From the NCBI RefSeq assembly GCF_001482305.1, contig NZ_LOHP01000064.1, positions 1-64,000 on the forward strand: a DNA stretch of 64,000 nt, read 5' to 3'. Both the position numbers and the translations under genes were made by a program. This stretch comes from Leucobacter sp. G161 (GTDB taxonomy: Bacteria > Actinomycetota > Actinomycetes > Actinomycetales > Microbacteriaceae). Below the pieces are notes generated by a model. That model searched no databases. It saw nothing but the letters and a program-made list of their open reading frames with translations, and was not told the origin of the DNA. How positions within the stretch are numbered: the first letter of the stretch is position 1; every line of letters starts with the position of its first letter. Below, piece by piece: positions 55,306-64,000 of the stretch.

Positions 55306-56140
55306 ACCTCATCCGCCCTCACCACCGAGCCGATGACGTTCTGCTGGTACTACGGCGCGCGCGTCTCTTCGGCTATCACGGGCCCGCAATACCGCATTCC
55401 CTGGGACAATATTCAGTCGCTCTGGAGCGCCGGTCAGGCGAACTGGGGCGCTGTGCTCGATTACGGTCTGAACGGGTACGCCCCAGGGGTGCTGCCGCCG
55501 AACTCGCTCGGTCTTGACCTCGTGAACAATGCAACACGCAACGGGAATCCCGAGGCCGGGCCGACCGGCACGATCACTGAGAGCATGTGGTACGCATGGG
55601 TGCACGAGGACGGCTCGTTGGTCGAATCGATCAACACCGGGCCCATCCGGCTGACATGCAACAGTTCGCGCGATAGCCGCTCGTCGACTGAGCGGTACAT
55701 CATTAAGAACTTGGCGCAGTCGGCGCGACCCGATGCTCCGGCGCTCGGGTGGACCATCGAGCAGGCCGAGCAGGGCCTGACCCAGCGCGTCGGCATCGAC
55801 GGCTCGATCGACTTCTCCGGCGCGGGGGGTAACGGCTACTATCGGCTCCTCGCATGGCCGGAGGCTCGCGACCCACTCACGCCGAACGCGTCTCATGGTG
55901 CTCCGACGATTTCGTACACGGCCGCTGACCTGTTTGACGCGAACGGGTATCTTACGCCGCGGGCTGACAAGGAAAAGTGGACGCCGGGCAGCGTCTACTA
56001 CCGATACGACATTCCGCTTCCGGACGCTCCAGTCATCACTGAGCCGCCGCACAACTCGCACACGAATGTGCCGGACTCCGTGACGATCTCGGGCACCGGC
56101 ACACCGGGTCACACGATCTCGTTGAAGTTCACCGCCGGCA
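55306..56140 (+). pseudogene. pilus/cell-wall adhesin, internal fragment
   Basis: The open frame has no signal peptide, starts abruptly (ALTTEPMTFCWYYGARVSS from about 55318; first ATG 55333) and runs through a secreted-type region (SMWYAWVHEDGSLVESINT). It ends in a bacterial Ig-like repeat (PDAPVITEPPHNSHTNVPDS, then VTISGTGTPGHTISLKF). Similarity stops at about 56135, where the next frame carries pilin sequence. No LPxTG is present. Probably the remains of a tip adhesin that stood upstream of the pilin gene. Confidence 0.65.
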
Positions 56141-56141
56141 C

Positions 56142-57461
56142 GGGGAGGAGGGCGGTGACCTCGGACCCAACGACGGTTCCGAACTGCCGCTCACAGGCGT
56201 GAATCCACTCGAGGCAGGCTTTACCGCCTGTTCGATCGATGACATCGACCTCACCGTCGCTGCCGACTGGGAACGGCTCAAGGGCATCGTTGTCACCAAC
56301 GACCCCAACGGTGACCCCGTCGCAACAGAGGGGGGCACAACGCTCGCGTTGACCTGCGGTACTGAGCAGATGACATCGGCAGCCGATGGGACGACGGTGT
56401 TCAACCTCGCCGCCGACAAAGCCTACGTGGTCTACGAGAGCACGCTCGCTGCGAACGCGATCCCCGCCGCCGCGCCGACGCTCATCACCATTCCGTACCC
56501 CGGAAACGGGGAAGCGGGACAGCCCGAGTGGAACTACAATCCGCACATCTATCCCAAGAACTCGCTCGCGGGAGCGGGCGCGACGAATGACGGCGAGATC
56601 GTCGGCGATCAGATCACCTGGGACGTCACGGTCCCGATTGCGGCACTCGCTGACGGCGAGGTCTACAGCGAGCTGCGAATCAACGATCAGCTCGCGAGCT
56701 TCGTCGAGTACACGAGCGGTACCGTTGTGCTGAAGGATGCTACTGGAGGCGATGTCACGCTGGTAGAGGGCACCGACTACACCCTGAGCGCGCCCTCAGG
56801 TAGCGGGGGAGACGAGGTCATTTTGACAATGCTCGCCCCTGGCCTTGCCAAGCTCGACGCAAACATCGGTGGCAAGCTTGTTCTTACTATCGAGGCGAAG
56901 GCGATCGGCAGCGGATCGACCGCCAACGAGGCCCAGATCACCATCAACGGGACAACGACCGATCCCGGAACCGGGCCTGAGGTCACAGATCCTAAAGAGT
57001 TCTTCTCGGGCGCACACATCATGAAGGAAGCCAAGAACAAGGGGGCCGCCGCAAACGTCCCGCTTGCCGGAGCACAGTTCGACGTGTACGAGGCAGCGAG
57101 CGGCTCTACCGAGTGCCCGACCGAGCCTGACCCCGCTGCGGCCAAGGTCGTATCGGGTGCGGAATCGGGCGCCGATGGCAAGACGCCAAACGAGGTCCTC
57201 GCCGAAGGTGTCTACTGCGTGTACGAGACCGGTGTGCCGGCCGGGTACAAGGGTCTCAACGGCGGCATGCTCATGACCGTCGACGGAGAGGACTCGTTCG
57301 TCACTATCGTCAACACCCAAGTTGGCGCGGACGAGGGCGACCTGCCGGATCTACCGATCACTGGTGCAGTGGGCAATGTTCTGCTCGTCGCAGGCGGCGC
57401 CGCACTGCTGGTTGTGGCCGGCATGCTGATTGCTGCGCGACGCAAGCAGCAGCAGCTCTAG
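56142..57461 (+). pseudogene. sortase-anchored major pilin (SpaH/FimA-like), 5'-truncated
   Basis: In frame from about 56142: EEGGDLGPNDGSELPLTGVN then IDDIDLTVAADWERLKG, typical of the mature N-domain of Gram-positive major pilins. An isopeptide-type central domain follows (WNYNPHIYPKN is the conserved pilin-motif region; the Lys is the likely polymerisation site), then a Cna-B-like C domain and a sorting signal LPDLPITG followed by a TM helix and RRKQQQ. The signal peptide and first residues are missing and the upstream adhesin frame runs into it one base out of frame. GTG 56199 is the first start-like codon inside the remaining frame but would give a protein without export signal. Confidence 0.75.
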
Positions 57462-58861: not shown

Positions 58862-59047
58862 TCACTCTGAGCTGAACAGGCTGCTGAGATACATGGCTGT
58901 GGCGGCCGCCGCCAACAGGAATATTCCTCCCCAGCCGCGACGGCTGCGGCGGGCAGGTTGCCGTTTCGGGGTGAGGATCCACGCTGTCAGCATGCCAAAC
59001 GCGAGGAGGGCGAGGACCGAACCGACGACGGTGAAGAGTCCGGACAC
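58862..59047 (-). CDS. small two-TM membrane protein of the vWA/Hsp70 operon
   Basis: This 61-residue protein has two hydrophobic helices (LFTVVGSVLALLAFGMLTAWIL and GGIFLLAAAATAMYLSSLF) joined by a basic loop (PKRQPARRSRRGW). It starts at GTG, 2 bp after the vWA stop, so it is probably translated as the last gene of the operon. No known family recognised. Confidence 0.65.
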   Translation of the reverse strand: MSGLFTVVGSVLALLAFGMLTAWILTPKRQPARRSRRGWGGIFLLAAAATAMYLSSLFSSE

Positions 59048-59049
59048 GG

Positions 59050-59667
59050 CTATCGCTGCTTTCTCACTGAGAGGCCGCGGGCGAGGCCACGAATGTCGTC
59101 GCTGAGGGTTGTCGTGGTCGCCGCGGCGGTCGGTAGGGATTCGGTAGAGATGACGCTCAGCGCCGCAGCGCTCGCGGAGCCGAGCCCGAGGGTGATGATC
59201 CTGATGCCGTGACGGGTGAGCCTGTGCGCCTCTGCGCGCGCCGCGTCTTCGTCTCCCAAGTCGCCATCGCCAAACACGGCGACGACTCGATCAGTAACGT
59301 CGATCTTCATGAGCAGATCGCCGGCGAGCTCGAGCGCACTCGAAATGTTGGTGCCGCCCATCGGCGACGCCCCTTCGAGTAACTGCCGCACTGCGGTCGC
59401 GTCCGGGGCCGGGGCAACGTAATCCTCAACTCTGGTGTGCCACAGTGCCGCGCCGACGAGGTAGCCGCCGCCGGTCGCCTCCTCGACGAAGCCCAGTGCG
59501 CCTGTGATGGCAGCCCGCATGTTGCCACTCATGGACCCGCTCACATCGAGGAGAAGCATCACTGCCCCCGAACCCCCGAAACGTTCTTCGAGCTTCTTCA
59601 AATGGGGGCCGGGTGCAAACTCGGTCACGCCCTCAGCCTCTATGACCTTCTTCATCCAGGTTGTCAT
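59050..59667 (-). CDS. von Willebrand factor A domain protein (TerY-like)
   Basis: This 205-residue protein is a single vWA domain with a full MIDAS: DVSGSMSG (about residue 41), Thr in PMGGTNISSALELA, and Asp in VFGDGDLGDED. vWA domains bind metal and dock partner proteins; TerY-like stand-alone forms occur with chaperones and NTPases in stress or conflict operons. It lies 5 bp after the Hsp70 stop. Confidence 0.9.
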   Translation of the reverse strand: MTTWMKKVIEAEGVTEFAPGPHLKKLEERFGGSGAVMLLLDVSGSMSGNMRAAITGALGFVEEATGGGYLVGAALWHTRVEDYVAPAPDATAVRQLLEGASPMGGTNISSALELAGDLLMKIDVTDRVVAVFGDGDLGDEDAARAEAHRLTRHGIRIITLGLGSASAAALSVISTESLPTAAATTTTLSDDIRGLARGLSVRKQR

Positions 59668-59672
59668 CGCCG

Positions 59673-61241
59673 CTACTTTCTCATCCGCAGACCGCTGGTG
59701 GCCTGGCGTTGTTCGCTGACTTCGGTTTCGTCGAGCACGCCGTGCATAAACGCCTCGACGACGACGGGCTGCTGCTGGTGCCCCGCAGTGGCCTCAAGAC
59801 GCACGCGCCCGTCGGCTGACACGGTCACCCACAGTGACACCTTGCTGCCGGCAGGCGAGGCCGGGATGCCGCTGAGCTCGCCCTCGATCAGTGGGCGATT
59901 GTCCGCGACCTGCGAGGAGGAGACATTGCCGGCCTGTTCAAAGATCTGGATACGTGCGTGCTCTTGATTCGCGACCATGGTGGCGACAGCGTGCTCGTAC
60001 CGGGTTACCGGCAATGGCGTGTTTGCGTGAATGAAGTGCGCCACGTAGGGTTCCTCGGTATATGGATCCCGGCTGGTGTGGATCAGCACGCCAATCGACC
60101 GTGGTAGGACCGAGGTGATACGGGCCGAATCGCTCGCCATGGCTTTGATGCCGTTCACGGTGATGGCGCGCCGCTCGCGCGCTGCGAGCAGTTGCTCGGC
60201 GTGGATCGCTGCTCCGCGCGCCACCGCCTTGTCGGGATCCGTGAGCAACACCGGAAGCGAGAACCGCTCAGCGAGGAGCTGGCGGATCATCGGCATGCGT
60301 GTCGAACCGCCTACCAGCAAGATCTGGTCAACCTCCGGCGCCCCGGCGTTCTGAGCTGACTGCAGGACGCGGTCTACGGCCGCAAGTGAACGGAGCATGA
60401 GATCCTGCGTGACCGCGATGAAGCCTTCGCGCGTCAGCGACAGGGTGAAGGTGCGACCGGCCACTCGGATCCGCTCGGTGACGGACTCTGCCCCGGTGAG
60501 TTTGCGTTTGATGCGCTCCGAGGCGGTGTGAATTGCGGCAATGACTTCTTCATCGAACCGTAACTCTTCAGCGTCCTCGAGGGTGTCAAACTCCTCCCAC
60601 ATGAGCTGTTGGATGCGTTCGTCCCAATCGAGCCCACCAAGCTTGGATTCGCCATCAACCGCCCACACCCGATGTTGTCCACGGTCGATACCGACAACCG
60701 CAACATCGAAGGTCCCGCCACCCAAGTCGTACACGAGTGATGTTTTCGTCGGATCACTGGCGAGGCCGTACGAGTAGGCCGCGGCAACTGGCTCCGGTAA
60801 CAACTCCGGGCAGTCAAGGTTCGCGATGCGCGCGGCGGCGGCCGTCGCCTCCTTTTCGGCGATGCCGAAGTAGGCGGGCACAGTGATGACCGCTTGGAGA
60901 TCTGCCGGGGTGACTCCGAGGGCCGTCGCCGCGTCAGCGGCAAGCTTACTGAGGATGAGTGCTGAAATTCCCTCAGGCGTGAGCGTCCGCTCCGCGTATT
61001 CCAGCGGATAGTCCTTGCCCATGTGGCGTTTGATACCCACGACCACGTTGTCAGGATCCTCGAGGAGGAGCTCCTTCGCGTCCTCTCCGACTGTGACGTC
61101 GCCACTTCCGGAGATGTGCACGACCGACGGCGTGAGCTCACCGCCTGAGTCGGTGACGATCACTTGCTCAGTGCCGTCGCTTGCGTAGTGGATGACACAC
61201 GAATAGGTCGTGCCGAGGTCGATACCGATGCTGATGGCCAT
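59673..61241 (-). CDS. short Hsp70 (DnaK-like) ATPase
   Basis: This 522-residue protein has an Hsp70 nucleotide-binding domain: GIDLGTTYSCV at the N-terminus, VITVPAYFG, LLPEPVAAAYSYGL, VYDLGGGTFDVAVV and LLVGGSTRMPMIRQLL. A beta substrate-binding-like part follows (~370-500), but the C-terminal helical lid and EEVD-like tail of DnaK (~620 residues) are missing. It is not beside grpE or dnaJ, so it is a specialised Hsp70 rather than the housekeeping one. GGAAAGA precedes the ATG. It probably remodels a partner from the same operon. Confidence 0.92.
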   Translation of the reverse strand: MAISIGIDLGTTYSCVIHYASDGTEQVIVTDSGGELTPSVVHISGSGDVTVGEDAKELLLEDPDNVVVGIKRHMGKDYPLEYAERTLTPEGISALILSKLAADAATALGVTPADLQAVITVPAYFGIAEKEATAAAARIANLDCPELLPEPVAAAYSYGLASDPTKTSLVYDLGGGTFDVAVVGIDRGQHRVWAVDGESKLGGLDWDERIQQLMWEEFDTLEDAEELRFDEEVIAAIHTASERIKRKLTGAESVTERIRVAGRTFTLSLTREGFIAVTQDLMLRSLAAVDRVLQSAQNAGAPEVDQILLVGGSTRMPMIRQLLAERFSLPVLLTDPDKAVARGAAIHAEQLLAARERRAITVNGIKAMASDSARITSVLPRSIGVLIHTSRDPYTEEPYVAHFIHANTPLPVTRYEHAVATMVANQEHARIQIFEQAGNVSSSQVADNRPLIEGELSGIPASPAGSKVSLWVTVSADGRVRLEATAGHQQQPVVVEAFMHGVLDETEVSEQRQATSGLRMRK

Positions 61242-61270
61242 GGTGTTCTTTCCGAGAGGGGAGTAAAGCG

Positions 61271-62119
61271 CTATTCCTGTACGAGGCCGGAGAGCGCTGA
61301 AACGGTTGCCGGGTCTGCCAGCGCTGCGGGCGCGCTGCGAATGATGGCGAGCATGTCAGGGAGCGTGATGAGGGGAACCGCGCCTGGCCACGCTGTGCCT
61401 GGCGCGACGAGACCTATACCCGCATTCGTTGGGACGAGCACGACGAAGGAGCGCACGCGGTGCTGCGGAAAGATCTTCGGGAACCGCTGCTGAGCCATCG
61501 CCATATTGCGTGACATCTTGCGGGGCTTGCCAACCTGGCTGCCGGATGTATTGTCGCGGCAGAGCAGCCACTCCCCGTCCTCCGAATGCCAGGTCACGTC
61601 GCCCGAGCTGTAGTACTTGAGGTCGATGAGGTAGATTTCGTTGCCCTGCACGACAACGCAGTCCACATCGGTCTGGAACTTGGCGTCGGCGACGGCCCGA
61701 CCGTCGTCTCCGGGCAACGCCACGGACCAAAACGATGAGACGTTGTCGATGAGGTCCTCTTTGCAGAGTGCCTTGTACAACGCCACCTCGCCCAGCTGGC
61801 CGGTGTACACCCGGTGTTTTTCGAACGAGGTGTCAAAGAGCCCGAGGCCGGCGATGCCGCGCGCGTTCACCGAAATCGGGGCGTGGTAGTCGCGCAGCAC
61901 GCGCGGTTCAAAGCCGGTGGTGTGGCCCTGCCGGGAGGGACGATCAATCTGACCGTTTACTCGCGGAGGCGGAGGCGACGTGCGCGGCGCGCCGCTCGTC
62001 GTTCGCGGCTGGTGCTGCACAGGTGTCGAGCGCTGCGGAGTGGTGCGAGACTGGTGCGCTCGTGAGCGCGGTTTCGCTCCGCGTATGCCCAGCAGCTGCT
62101 TGATAAATTCGATCATCAT
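61271..62119 (-). CDS. NERD-type nuclease-related domain protein
   Basis: This 282-residue protein starts with a short hydrophobic helix and a Pro/Arg/Thr-rich linker (residues ~15-75). A NERD-like domain of the restriction-endonuclease fold follows: GQLGEVALYKAL (Glu), then TDVDCVVVQGNEIYLIDLKYYSSGD (Asp ... Asp-x-Lys). The Asp/Glu-x-Lys core is what a catalytic site of this fold needs, so DNA or RNA cleavage is plausible but not shown. It overlaps the upstream gene by 4 bases. Confidence 0.75.
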   Translation of the reverse strand: MMIEFIKQLLGIRGAKPRSRAHQSRTTPQRSTPVQHQPRTTSGAPRTSPPPPRVNGQIDRPSRQGHTTGFEPRVLRDYHAPISVNARGIAGLGLFDTSFEKHRVYTGQLGEVALYKALCKEDLIDNVSSFWSVALPGDDGRAVADAKFQTDVDCVVVQGNEIYLIDLKYYSSGDVTWHSEDGEWLLCRDNTSGSQVGKPRKMSRNMAMAQQRFPKIFPQHRVRSFVVLVPTNAGIGLVAPGTAWPGAVPLITLPDMLAIIRSAPAALADPATVSALSGLVQE

Positions 62120-62742
62120 TCCGCCTCGTGTCTGATCGATGCCTCGAGCGATTCGTTATAGGTGTATTCATTTGTCGCGTTGTCAATGACACTCAGACCA
62201 GATTCGCCGAGACCGTAGGTAACGGTGCCGTCCGTGGCCGCCCAGTAGTCGCCGCGGTCTTCGGCGGGGAGCTCAGCCCATGCGTCGTCGGGCCCCGACG
62301 CAATGAATGTGAGGGCGCCGTCGGAGTCCTGACACACGACGGCAGTGACGTTCGTCGTCTGCGCCTCGAACACCGCTTGGGTGCCGAGATTGCACATCGA
62401 GAACCAGGAGGCATCGCTGGCGTCGTCTTCGCTCATCTCCGCCTGGCTGTCGGAGCCCGACGGATCCCACGGCATTCGGAGCTCGCTATTGGCCCATGCG
62501 GACACTCCCTGGGAGAAGGAGAAGTAGTTGTGCCAGAGGCGTGCGCCGTTGTTGTCTGCCAATACCCATGACACCGCCCCGAAGAGCCCACCCAGCACGA
62601 TAAGGATCTGCGCGATGGACACAAGATTTCGAAACACCCAGTACTTCTTCGGAATACCATCGCGCATCGTGTCGTCTGCGTGGGCACTCGTGATGCTGTC
62701 GGTGAACGGCTGATTCTGTGTGCCGTGATCGTTGAACTTCAC
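62116..62742 (-). CDS. single-pass membrane protein of the GTPase/Hsp70 operon
   Basis: This 208-residue protein has a cytoplasmic ~35 residues, one TM helix (LVSIAQILIVLGGLFGAVSWVL) and an extracytoplasmic acidic domain with two Cys residues (FSMCNLGTQ; TAVVCQDSDG) that could form a disulfide. No known family. The 4-base overlaps with both neighbours imply tight co-translation; it may sense an envelope signal for the operon (inference). Confidence 0.75.
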   Translation of the reverse strand: MKFNDHGTQNQPFTDSITSAHADDTMRDGIPKKYWVFRNLVSIAQILIVLGGLFGAVSWVLADNNGARLWHNYFSFSQGVSAWANSELRMPWDPSGSDSQAEMSEDDASDASWFSMCNLGTQAVFEAQTTNVTAVVCQDSDGALTFIASGPDDAWAELPAEDRGDYWAATDGTVTYGLGESGLSVIDNATNEYTYNESLEASIRHEAE

Positions 62743-64000
62743 GCTCCAACCTCACTCTTCTCGGGAGAACCGGAACTGGGCTGGTGCCCCTGTCCGTGCG
62801 GAGCCGCCGGGGTAGGGAACACGGACGTGCCGCCGTGCTGCATGATCGTCCAATCGATGACGTGCATGGGGCGCAGGGAAGCGGTAGGCGCACTCTCTAC
62901 AGCGGAAGACACTGCGAAATAGCGTACGTTTGCGAAGTCCATTTCGAGCCTGGTGATCAACCGGTCCTCGCCGTGGGTATACAACCAATCTCTGACTCCG
63001 GCGCTCGTGTCCGGCAACGGCGTGGCCGGCATGATTTCAGCAATCACGTCCGCCTTCGTCACCACAACGGCGAGCTGCCGCTTGCTGAGGTCCTCGCCAC
63101 TGTTTCGGAGCCGATCGACCACGCTTGCGTAGGCATCGCTGGTTCCTCCCTGAGCGACCTGGATCTTTCCGGCCATCGCGCTGAGCTCCAGCTCTTCGTG
63201 CACCTCGGGGATCGTCAACGGGTCAACGAGGAAGACGAGCGACTGCGAAATGTCGAGGTATCCAAGCTGCGTCGTGCCGTCCGCTCCGACAAAGTTCTCA
63301 CCGGCTGCGTCCATGAGGTGCAGTTCGAATTCCCCCTCCGGGCGCTCTACGAGGTACGGGAGGCCCTCGGGGCGCTGCTCATGCCGCGTCTTGACGGGTG
63401 CCTGCCCCGCTGCTCGTTCGGCAACGGAAGCAGCGAGGAACTCCTGCGCGCTCGGATTCAGGGCCGTGATGCTCAGCCCTGAGGACACCCCTGAGCTACC
63501 CTCGTGCAGCGCCACGGCGGCACTCGCGAGAAACTGTGTCTTGCCGGCGCCGACCGAACCGAATACCGGTACGACAACCACTCGTCGAGTACCGCTGCCC
63601 TGCGGCAACTCCTCGTCGCAGTACGGGCACACCGCGACGAGGGTCTTCGAAGCCTTGGCGACGGTCACCGGAAGCTGTTCTCCGCAGGCGCAGATTCGGT
63701 GGCGAATCCCCAGACGCCCCGGAGCCATGTCGCGGTGCACGATGCTGCACTGAGGGTTCGAACAGCGAAAGCTTGGCATCGTGGTCGACTGGTAGCAGCG
63801 CGTGCACCGCACCGCCGCGTTGTGTCGCTTCATGAACCGGGCCTCCCGCCAACGCATGACACGCAGCGAGACTGCCTGTGCGGCGTTCACGACAAGCCGA
63901 AACACCGAGGTAATCGCGAGCCACAGCAGCGTGCCGAGGGCGACGCCTGCGATGAGTCCGAGCGTCGGAATGCCGAGGACGATCGCCCAGGTAATCGTAG
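62739..64000 (-). CDS. membrane-anchored Zn-ribbon P-loop GTPase (double-GTPase-like), 5' partial
   Basis: The frame stays open past the GTG at 63905 to the window edge, and the extra codons encode a TM helix (WAIVLGIPTLGLIAGVALG), so the start lies outside. Next come zinc-ribbon cysteines (VRCTRCYQ, FRCSNPQC, RICACGEQ, VCPYCDEE). A P-loop GTPase follows with Walker A FGSVGAGKTQFL, Walker B-like LMDAAGENF, and TKAD (VVVTKADVIAE) for guanine specificity. This layout resembles the double-GTPase-like proteins predicted in NTP-dependent conflict systems. The C-terminal tail is Pro/Ser/His-rich. First visible gene of the six-gene minus-strand operon. Confidence 0.82.
   Translation of the reverse strand, partial: TITWAIVLGIPTLGLIAGVALGTLLWLAITSVFRLVVNAAQAVSLRVMRWREARFMKRHNAAVRCTRCYQSTTMPSFRCSNPQCSIVHRDMAPGRLGIRHRICACGEQLPVTVAKASKTLVAVCPYCDEELPQGSGTRRVVVVPVFGSVGAGKTQFLASAAVALHEGSSGVSSGLSITALNPSAQEFLAASVAERAAGQAPVKTRHEQRPEGLPYLVERPEGEFELHLMDAAGENFVGADGTTQLGYLDISQSLVFLVDPLTIPEVHEELELSAMAGKIQVAQGGTSDAYASVVDRLRNSGEDLSKRQLAVVVTKADVIAEIMPATPLPDTSAGVRDWLYTHGEDRLITRLEMDFANVRYFAVSSAVESAPTASLRPMHVIDWTIMQHGGTSVFPTPAAPHGQGHQPSSGSPEKSEVGA

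Follow-up and report, generated by a model that had tools for sequence, protein, structure and literature searches.

A DO-GTPase/GAP1 operon with Hsp70, GrpE and a candidate NERD effector in Leucobacter sp. G161

Organization of the operon

The stretch of DNA analyzed in this work, referred to as the window, comprises bases 1-64000 of a contig of 153,207 bases (NZ_LOHP01000064.1) from the actinobacterium Leucobacter sp. G161, and at its far end it carries part of an operon that encodes a pair of GTPases of the DO-GTPase type, Hsp70 chaperones and a nuclease-like protein with a NERD domain. The initial annotation proposed a six-gene operon at 58862-64000, cut at its 5' end by the limit of the window. 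The six open reading frames (ORFs) are present on the minus strand, separated by gaps of 2, 5 and 29 bp and by two overlaps of 4 bases, and the 5' part of the operon is readable in the contig beyond base 64000. The genes are real, but they form the tail of an operon of eleven co-directed genes, with five additional ones upstream that end at 73028; about 225 bases lie between the grpE gene and an ABC-transporter gene. A chance arrangement is excluded because the block is conserved in other genera.

The five upstream genes, also on the minus strand, encode GrpE (contig 72069-73028; Pfam GrpE 4.2e-10, the true start being probably internal), a first Hsp70, Hsp70A (contig 70474-72072; HSP70 7.5e-91), an FN3/TPR-like protein (contig 67715-70435), DO-GTPase A (contig 66483-67718; DO-GTPase2 7e-9) and GTPase-associated protein 1, GAP1 (contig 64442-66475; GAP1-N2, PF20013, 4.5e-27, and GAP1-M, PF20014, 4.9e-14). 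The match of the FN3/TPR-like protein to fn3 (4.8e-5) is slightly below the cut-off (23.9 versus 25 bits), TPR is seen only at E values of 0.2-0.3, and the Pfam scan gave no DnaJ match in this protein.

DO-GTPase B, of 566 residues, is encoded at 62739-64000 of the window and on to contig base 64439, and its match to DO-GTPase2 has an E value of 2.7e-16 in the scan of the window ORFs and of 5.7e-16 in the scan that includes the genes beyond the window. The motifs GSVGAGKT, DAAGE and TKAD, already read in this protein, are present; in the GTPase pair the Walker B glutamate is found as DSAGE and DAAGE, together with the CxxC pairs of zinc ribbons. Hydrophobic stretches at residues 1-57 and 138-175 of GTPase B, which thus combines N-terminal membrane helices with zinc ribbons, and those of the transmembrane (TM) proteins agree with the membrane setting that had been put forward. 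The single-TM protein (62116-62742, 208 residues), called as an ORF with a hydrophobic stretch, consists of a conserved part of about 70 residues and an extension of about 110 residues that is absent from the other loci read; this extra segment, which follows the TM helix, is probably outside the cell.

The remaining genes encode the NERD protein (61271-62119, 282 residues; Pfam NERD 3.8e-7), a second Hsp70, Hsp70B (59673-61241, 522 residues; HSP70 3.1e-85), a von Willebrand factor A (vWA) protein (59050-59667, 205 residues; VWA_2 2.4e-9) and a small membrane protein known from its ORF call (58862-59047, 61 residues, two hydrophobic stretches). The initial domain assignments (VWA_2, HSP70, NERD and DO-GTPase2) are all above the curated cut-offs of Pfam. 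In both Arthrobacter loci described below, NERD is followed by a homologue of the small TM gene (E about 1e-6), and none was found in the Pseudoclavibacter locus or beside vWA in Microbacterium; the small TM gene is probably a real component of the operon.

The product of the ORF at 61271 reaches 31.0 bits with the NERD profile (PF08378, cut-off 22.1), so that its assignment to NERD holds, and its relatives reach 26.4, 22.5 and 22.4 bits. The residues E111, D153, D166 and K168 (E, D-x-D, D-x-K) are invariant in six of six NERD relatives. The protein resembles the NERD family in this match and in these residues, and conserved AGLGLF-, YWSV- and SRNM-like stretches set it apart as a subfamily of its own. 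Members of the subfamily also occur away from the operon (genomes G072 and G385, more weakly G090); a first genome scan using NERD alone confirmed no relative. As had been suggested, NERD would be the best effector candidate of the operon.

In Hsp70B the nucleotide-binding loops are intact, and the match to HSP70 stops at profile position 508 of 599, the C-terminal lid region being absent.

A conserved core and an exchangeable slot

When genomes were scanned with GTPase A of this clade, 20 named actinobacterial loci were obtained, 19 of which were counted and make, with the window, the 20 loci read; the remaining one is a 4.5-kb fragment that holds part of the core. Gene content was read on stop-to-stop frames, and the NERD genes of both Arthrobacter loci were located by tblastn. 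GrpE, Hsp70A, FN3, GTPase A and GAP1 are found in identical order in 20/20 loci (in Nocardiopsis salina and Schaalia, FN3, GTPase A or GAP1 reads as two pieces). The loci were selected by GTPase A; therefore, only the remaining genes are informative on conservation. GTPase B is next after GAP1 in 19 of the 20 loci, Nocardioides having Hsp70B and vWA in between, and a TM homologue of about 70 residues directly follows GTPase B in 18 of the 19 loci that are uncut at this point. This defines a seven-gene core formed by GrpE, Hsp70A, FN3/TPR, GTPase A, GAP1, GTPase B and the short TM protein. In Corynebacterium gallinarum a further DO-GTPase2 protein (L092:17708-18877, 1.6e-9) is encoded downstream of the core.

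The slot after the TM gene is occupied by NERD in five of the 20 loci (the window, Pseudoclavibacter, Microbacterium testaceum and two Arthrobacter). In three genera of one family the core is followed by NERD, Hsp70B and vWA in a constant order, the module and the core of Microbacterium being on separate contigs; the Arthrobacter loci are devoid of Hsp70B and vWA. The NERD-bearing loci form one five-locus branch, with support of 100/100 in three gene trees, in which Microbacterium was placed by its core contig. Among 45 genomes, five (G000, G270, G170, G921 and G923) have a NERD at no more than 15 kb from GAP1-N2, where 0.45 would be expected for random points, an estimate that treats genomes as independent, which they are not; in addition, three of the five (G000, G921, G923) are one clade and the NERD of G170 is on the opposite strand. 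Microbacterium is excluded from this count, its NERD being on a contig other than that of GAP1, and the NERD of Pseudoclavibacter, picked up with the window protein as query, falls under the PF08378 threshold.

In four other loci (a Bifidobacteriaceae metagenome-assembled genome (MAG), an Actinomycetota MAG, Cryobacterium and Actinomyces dentalis) the slot is occupied by a papain-fold deamidase, a small conserved protein named here p88 and a HerA-type ATPase. In Schaalia the same three genes are convergent and lie beyond vWA. A deamidase with p88 at its side and then the ATPase was noted at L069:17930-18951, L087:15436-16361, L088:16467-17341 and L089:16453-17315. The catalytic Cys and His of the deamidase are invariant (5/5); two of the scanned readings matched PF15644 (5.9e-17 and 3.1e-15) and one further scanned reading had no match. 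No Pfam match was obtained for p88, which, as a guess, might be the immunity protein of the deamidase. The HerA-type ATPase of L087 matches the PADLOC family mad8 (1.5e-19). The Hsp70A tree shows the deamidase module on two distinct branches, and in none of the 20 loci do NERD and this module both lie between the TM gene and Hsp70B. Given that a toxin-like deamidase replaces a nuclease in one slot, an effector reading is favoured.

The pairing of Hsp70 with vWA, proposed initially, is best supported by the genome G270, of the same order and outside the 20 loci, in which both are fused in one protein of 722 residues (HSP70 1.1e-101, VWA 6e-10); Hsp70B and vWA thus probably act together. G270 also carries the core and a protein of 617 residues with a NERD match of 22.4 bits (cut-off 22.1) and an FtsK-like region just below the cut-off. 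Hsp70B is present in 13 of the 20 loci, and among the 12 that are uncut after it, vWA is next in 11, including the Bifidobacteriaceae MAG, where one gene separates them; in Frankia, Hsp70B is followed by a different protein with the same N-terminal tag as vWA. Of 23 core-bearing genomes searched with the window vWA, 11 gave exactly one match and 12 gave none. All 11 lie at Hsp70B, hence in these 23 genomes the family is seen solely at this operon. The tag of the window protein is W-x-KK..GVTEF..GP, and the form W-x-[KR]-[KR] ... [VLA]T[EQ] ... G heads 10 of the 11 vWA proteins, that of A. dentalis being divergent. A strict version of the pattern, too strict for wider inference, occurs genome-wide in two of 27 genomes at three places, and those that can be placed by coordinates are inside the operon. 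A tag of this type also heads a second family (L069:12562-13389, L079:17717-18397 and L083:16981-17679), whose domain has no Pfam match and which in Rhodococcus is convergent with vWA.

The operon is accessory in its genus: GAP1-N2 was detected in 1/54 genomes of the genus, 4/150 of the family, 19/396 of the order and 8/396 of a sample of the phylum, in tool-drawn, overlapping samples that each include the genome of the window. A control search also detected a GAP1-N2 gene in Corynebacterium glutamicum. A universal housekeeping envelope operon, the alternative raised at the outset, is rejected on the figure for the genus. Recent insertion at an empty site is not shown, given that the relatives of the sortase gene that neighbours the operon (80% identity in G950, 71% in G938) have different flanking genes; on the ABC-transporter side no close relative was found in 29 other genomes (about 40% at best). 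The GC content is 63.6% in the operon and 65.9% at 1-58800 of the window, with no clear foreign signal. Cryobacterium belongs to the same family as Pseudoclavibacter and Microbacterium; the Hsp70A tree places it in a different branch (100/100), which fits transfer or an old duplication with loss. Four Nocardiopsis loci (L080, L081, L082 and L084) have only the core, and three of them have the same pair of membrane-protein genes upstream, which suggests long residence and not recent mobility. In the 7.9-Mb genome G639, about 10 kb separate one GAP1-N2 gene from a second (L062). Before the sortase gene, two overlapping ORFs at 55333-57461 of the window, the second with an LPxTG-like sorting signal at its end, may be a split surface-protein gene; in G950 and G938 the ORFs close to the sortase gene are longer.

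A longin/DENN-like model of GAP1

The structure of GAP1 was modelled from the Pseudoclavibacter orthologue, which is 45% identical to the GAP1 of the window, and the model is confident (mean predicted local distance difference test, pLDDT, 87.6). Its first 100 residues are arranged as strand-strand-helix-three strands, the topology of a longin domain. The top two PDB matches obtained with Foldseek were a folliculin complex (E 2.8e-3) and a DENND10 entry (E 6.0e-3), with probability 0.99. In VIA-align, over residues 1-292 of the model, Z was 9.9 for DENND1A (231 residues, 4.8 A), 9.5 for DENND1B and 9.3 for TagF (PDB 9t0n, 256 residues); the values for the model were 8.8 for the DENND10 entry, 8.2 for folliculin (134 residues, 2.8 A) and 6.5 for the C9ORF72-SMCR8 entry, the entries being named after their titles with chains not told apart. 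Nine of the 50 matches listed fall on the N-terminal half, eight DENN-family entries and TagF, and most of the others align the C-terminal helical part with HEAT/ARM-type proteins. The viral structure library gave nothing of note.

Longin, DENN and d-DENN form a guanine nucleotide exchange factor module, in which DENN and d-DENN are described as known only jointly (Zhang et al. 2012, PMC3521125). The GAP1 model aligns over the longin and DENN part of DENND1A/B, DENND10, folliculin and C9ORF72-SMCR8, which suggests that the N-terminal half of GAP1 is longin/DENN-like and may work in a similar way. The gene of GAP1 adjoins those of its presumed GTPases, which may work as a pair at a membrane in the manner of the Rag GTPases. 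GAP1 differs from them in the absence of sequence similarity and in a C-terminal half that is a helical solenoid, and its partner GTPases belong to the TRAFAC clade, not to Rab or Rag (Kaur et al. 2020, PMC7159879). TagF is bacterial like GAP1 and shares the fold match of the model; we know of no GTPase partner for it. In type VI secretion, TagF is described as a repressor of the system that acts through Fha (PMC5995506). By title, none of the matches listed in the literature links GAP1 or TagF to DENN, and neither "longin" nor "DENN" appears in the main text of Kaur et al. (2020, PMC7159879).

The resemblance has its limits, since the model is that of an orthologue, Foldseek gave no match at E <= 0.001, and a best Z of 7-8 is frequent for unmatched models. 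Kinship between GAP1 and DENN is not shown because a profile of the GAP1 sequence, run against the PDB sequences with E <= 10 as the limit, did not retrieve any DENN protein. It is a tentative proposal, which we hold at somewhat less than even chance, that bacteria have in GAP1 a longin-DENN protein of their own and in the operon a prokaryotic counterpart of Rag/folliculin, where a membrane GTPase pair, lid-less Hsp70s and vWA would arm an exchangeable nuclease or deamidase.

Proposed working of the operon and its alternatives

Computational work has predicted a class of GTPase-centric conflict systems based on GAP1-N2, one theme of which includes HSP70 and GrpE (Kaur et al. 2020, PMC7159879). 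The upstream half, with GAP1, the second GTPase, FN3/TPR, GrpE and the first Hsp70, places our operon in this class, to which, as judged from its gene content, it is assigned as a case already known by prediction; the link to predicted nucleoside triphosphate-dependent conflict systems made in the initial annotation is in this way specified. As the main text of Kaur et al. describes the theme, both have a pair of DO-GTPases with zinc ribbons, one of them with N-terminal TM helices, GAP1-N2, an FNIII protein (fused to DnaJ or TPR there, and with an fn3 match slightly short of the cut-off here), and HSP70 with GrpE, plus a second HSP70 in a subset (PMC7159879). There are also differences with that text: neither NERD nor the deamidase is mentioned in it, a standalone vWA is given there as part of the kinase theme instead of the HSP70/GrpE theme, and the second HSP70 is described as having no peptide-binding domain, whereas Hsp70B matches the profile to position 508. 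Their conflict role is a prediction there as well (PMC7159879). Searching the literature for DO-GTPase, GAP1-N2 and GTPase-associated protein 1 returned, in the text available, only that paper and one on psp envelope-stress operons that names a DO-GTPase once (PMC11237479). No experiment on such an operon was found in the literature searched, which leaves out bioRxiv and most subscription journals. The new elements are the NERD/Hsp70B/vWA module, the exchange of NERD and deamidase in the slot, the Hsp70-vWA fusion and the DENN-like model of GAP1. To our knowledge, the DO-GTPase/GAP1 class is known only from computation, and we know of no mechanism for GAP1.

We favour, at slightly better than even chance, an accessory DO-GTPase system of the GAP1-N2 type with the Hsp70/GrpE theme and a NERD effector module, and we infer that conflict (defence) would be the purpose of the operon. 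GTPase B and the TM protein would both reside in the membrane, the soluble GTPase A would pair with GTPase B, and GAP1, as an exchange factor or activator, would determine which nucleotide state the two GTPases adopt. The trigger may be detected by the FN3/TPR protein and by the tail that the TM protein extends beyond the cytoplasm; two lid-less Hsp70s, GrpE and vWA would assemble or dismantle the active complex, and NERD would in the end be set free as an enzyme that cuts DNA or RNA, either that of an invader or the cell's own. In other lineages a deamidase module would take the slot of NERD. Envelope sensing by the membrane GTPase and the TM protein and an activation threshold set by Hsp70 and vWA, both put forward in the initial annotation, are likewise conjectural.

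Besides the limits of the GAP1 model, several observations weigh against this proposal. Half of the loci (10/20), including the four core-only Nocardiopsis, lack both NERD and the deamidase module and speak against it as a complete account. The model of NERD is too poor for a fold test (pLDDT 47.8), and although Holliday-junction resolvases stand first among its matches listed and many of the 50 are such nucleases, none has E <= 0.001. For GTPase A, no match was found in phages and only two, both distant, in plasmids; no protein of the operon falls in a PADLOC defence family, with weak matches to MkoA (2.8e-5), PDC-M61B (6.2e-5) and PDC-M16A (0.02), and the neighbours, sortase and ABC transporter, are not defence genes.

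Part of this evidence is also what would be expected from an accessory complex for envelope stress or protein quality control that remodels membrane or cell-wall proteins, with NERD as a nucleic-acid-binding or repair helper. Hsp70 and GrpE in every core locus, a second Hsp70 in 13 of them, the membrane GTPase, the ten loci without either module and the DO-GTPase named in psp operons (PMC11237479) agree with such a role, which we regard as unlikely, at about one chance in four, given the patchy presence in the genus and the interchange of NERD with a toxin-like deamidase, the catalytic residues of both being intact. Less probable still is an apparatus for toxin handling or export, bound to the membrane and directed against competing cells, where chaperones would keep the cargo, the HerA-type ATPase would pump it and p88 would protect the producer. 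The name of the PF15644 family, papain-fold toxin, and the company of p88 and the ATPase at the deamidase in five loci (four in the slot, one convergent in Schaalia) point to it; the module of the window, however, has neither the HerA-type gene nor p88, Pfam scans recognised no secretion-system component in its operon, and an immunity function of p88 is conjectural.

It is very improbable that the four genes for NERD, Hsp70B, vWA and the small TM protein are passengers with no relation to the GTPase core. Arthrobacter does without Hsp70B and vWA and Nocardiopsis without all four, as passengers would allow; nevertheless, the genes overlap, their order is kept in three genera, vWA is single-copy and always at this operon in the genomes that have it, and the proximity of NERD to GAP1-N2 exceeds the random expectation, with the reservations on clade and strand already given.

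Returning to a GTPase switch with an exchangeable effector, the swap of NERD and deamidase names the effector slot, so that the target of the switch is testable by means of a few active-site mutants, and a DENN-like fold of GAP1 would lead to a direct biochemical test, i.e. nucleotide exchange or hydrolysis on both GTPases. If GAP1 is DENN-like, a DENN-type regulator would be found beside GTPases in bacteria, and if the counterpart of Rag/folliculin is real, membrane GTPase pairs controlled by DENN would predate or parallel the eukaryotic ones.

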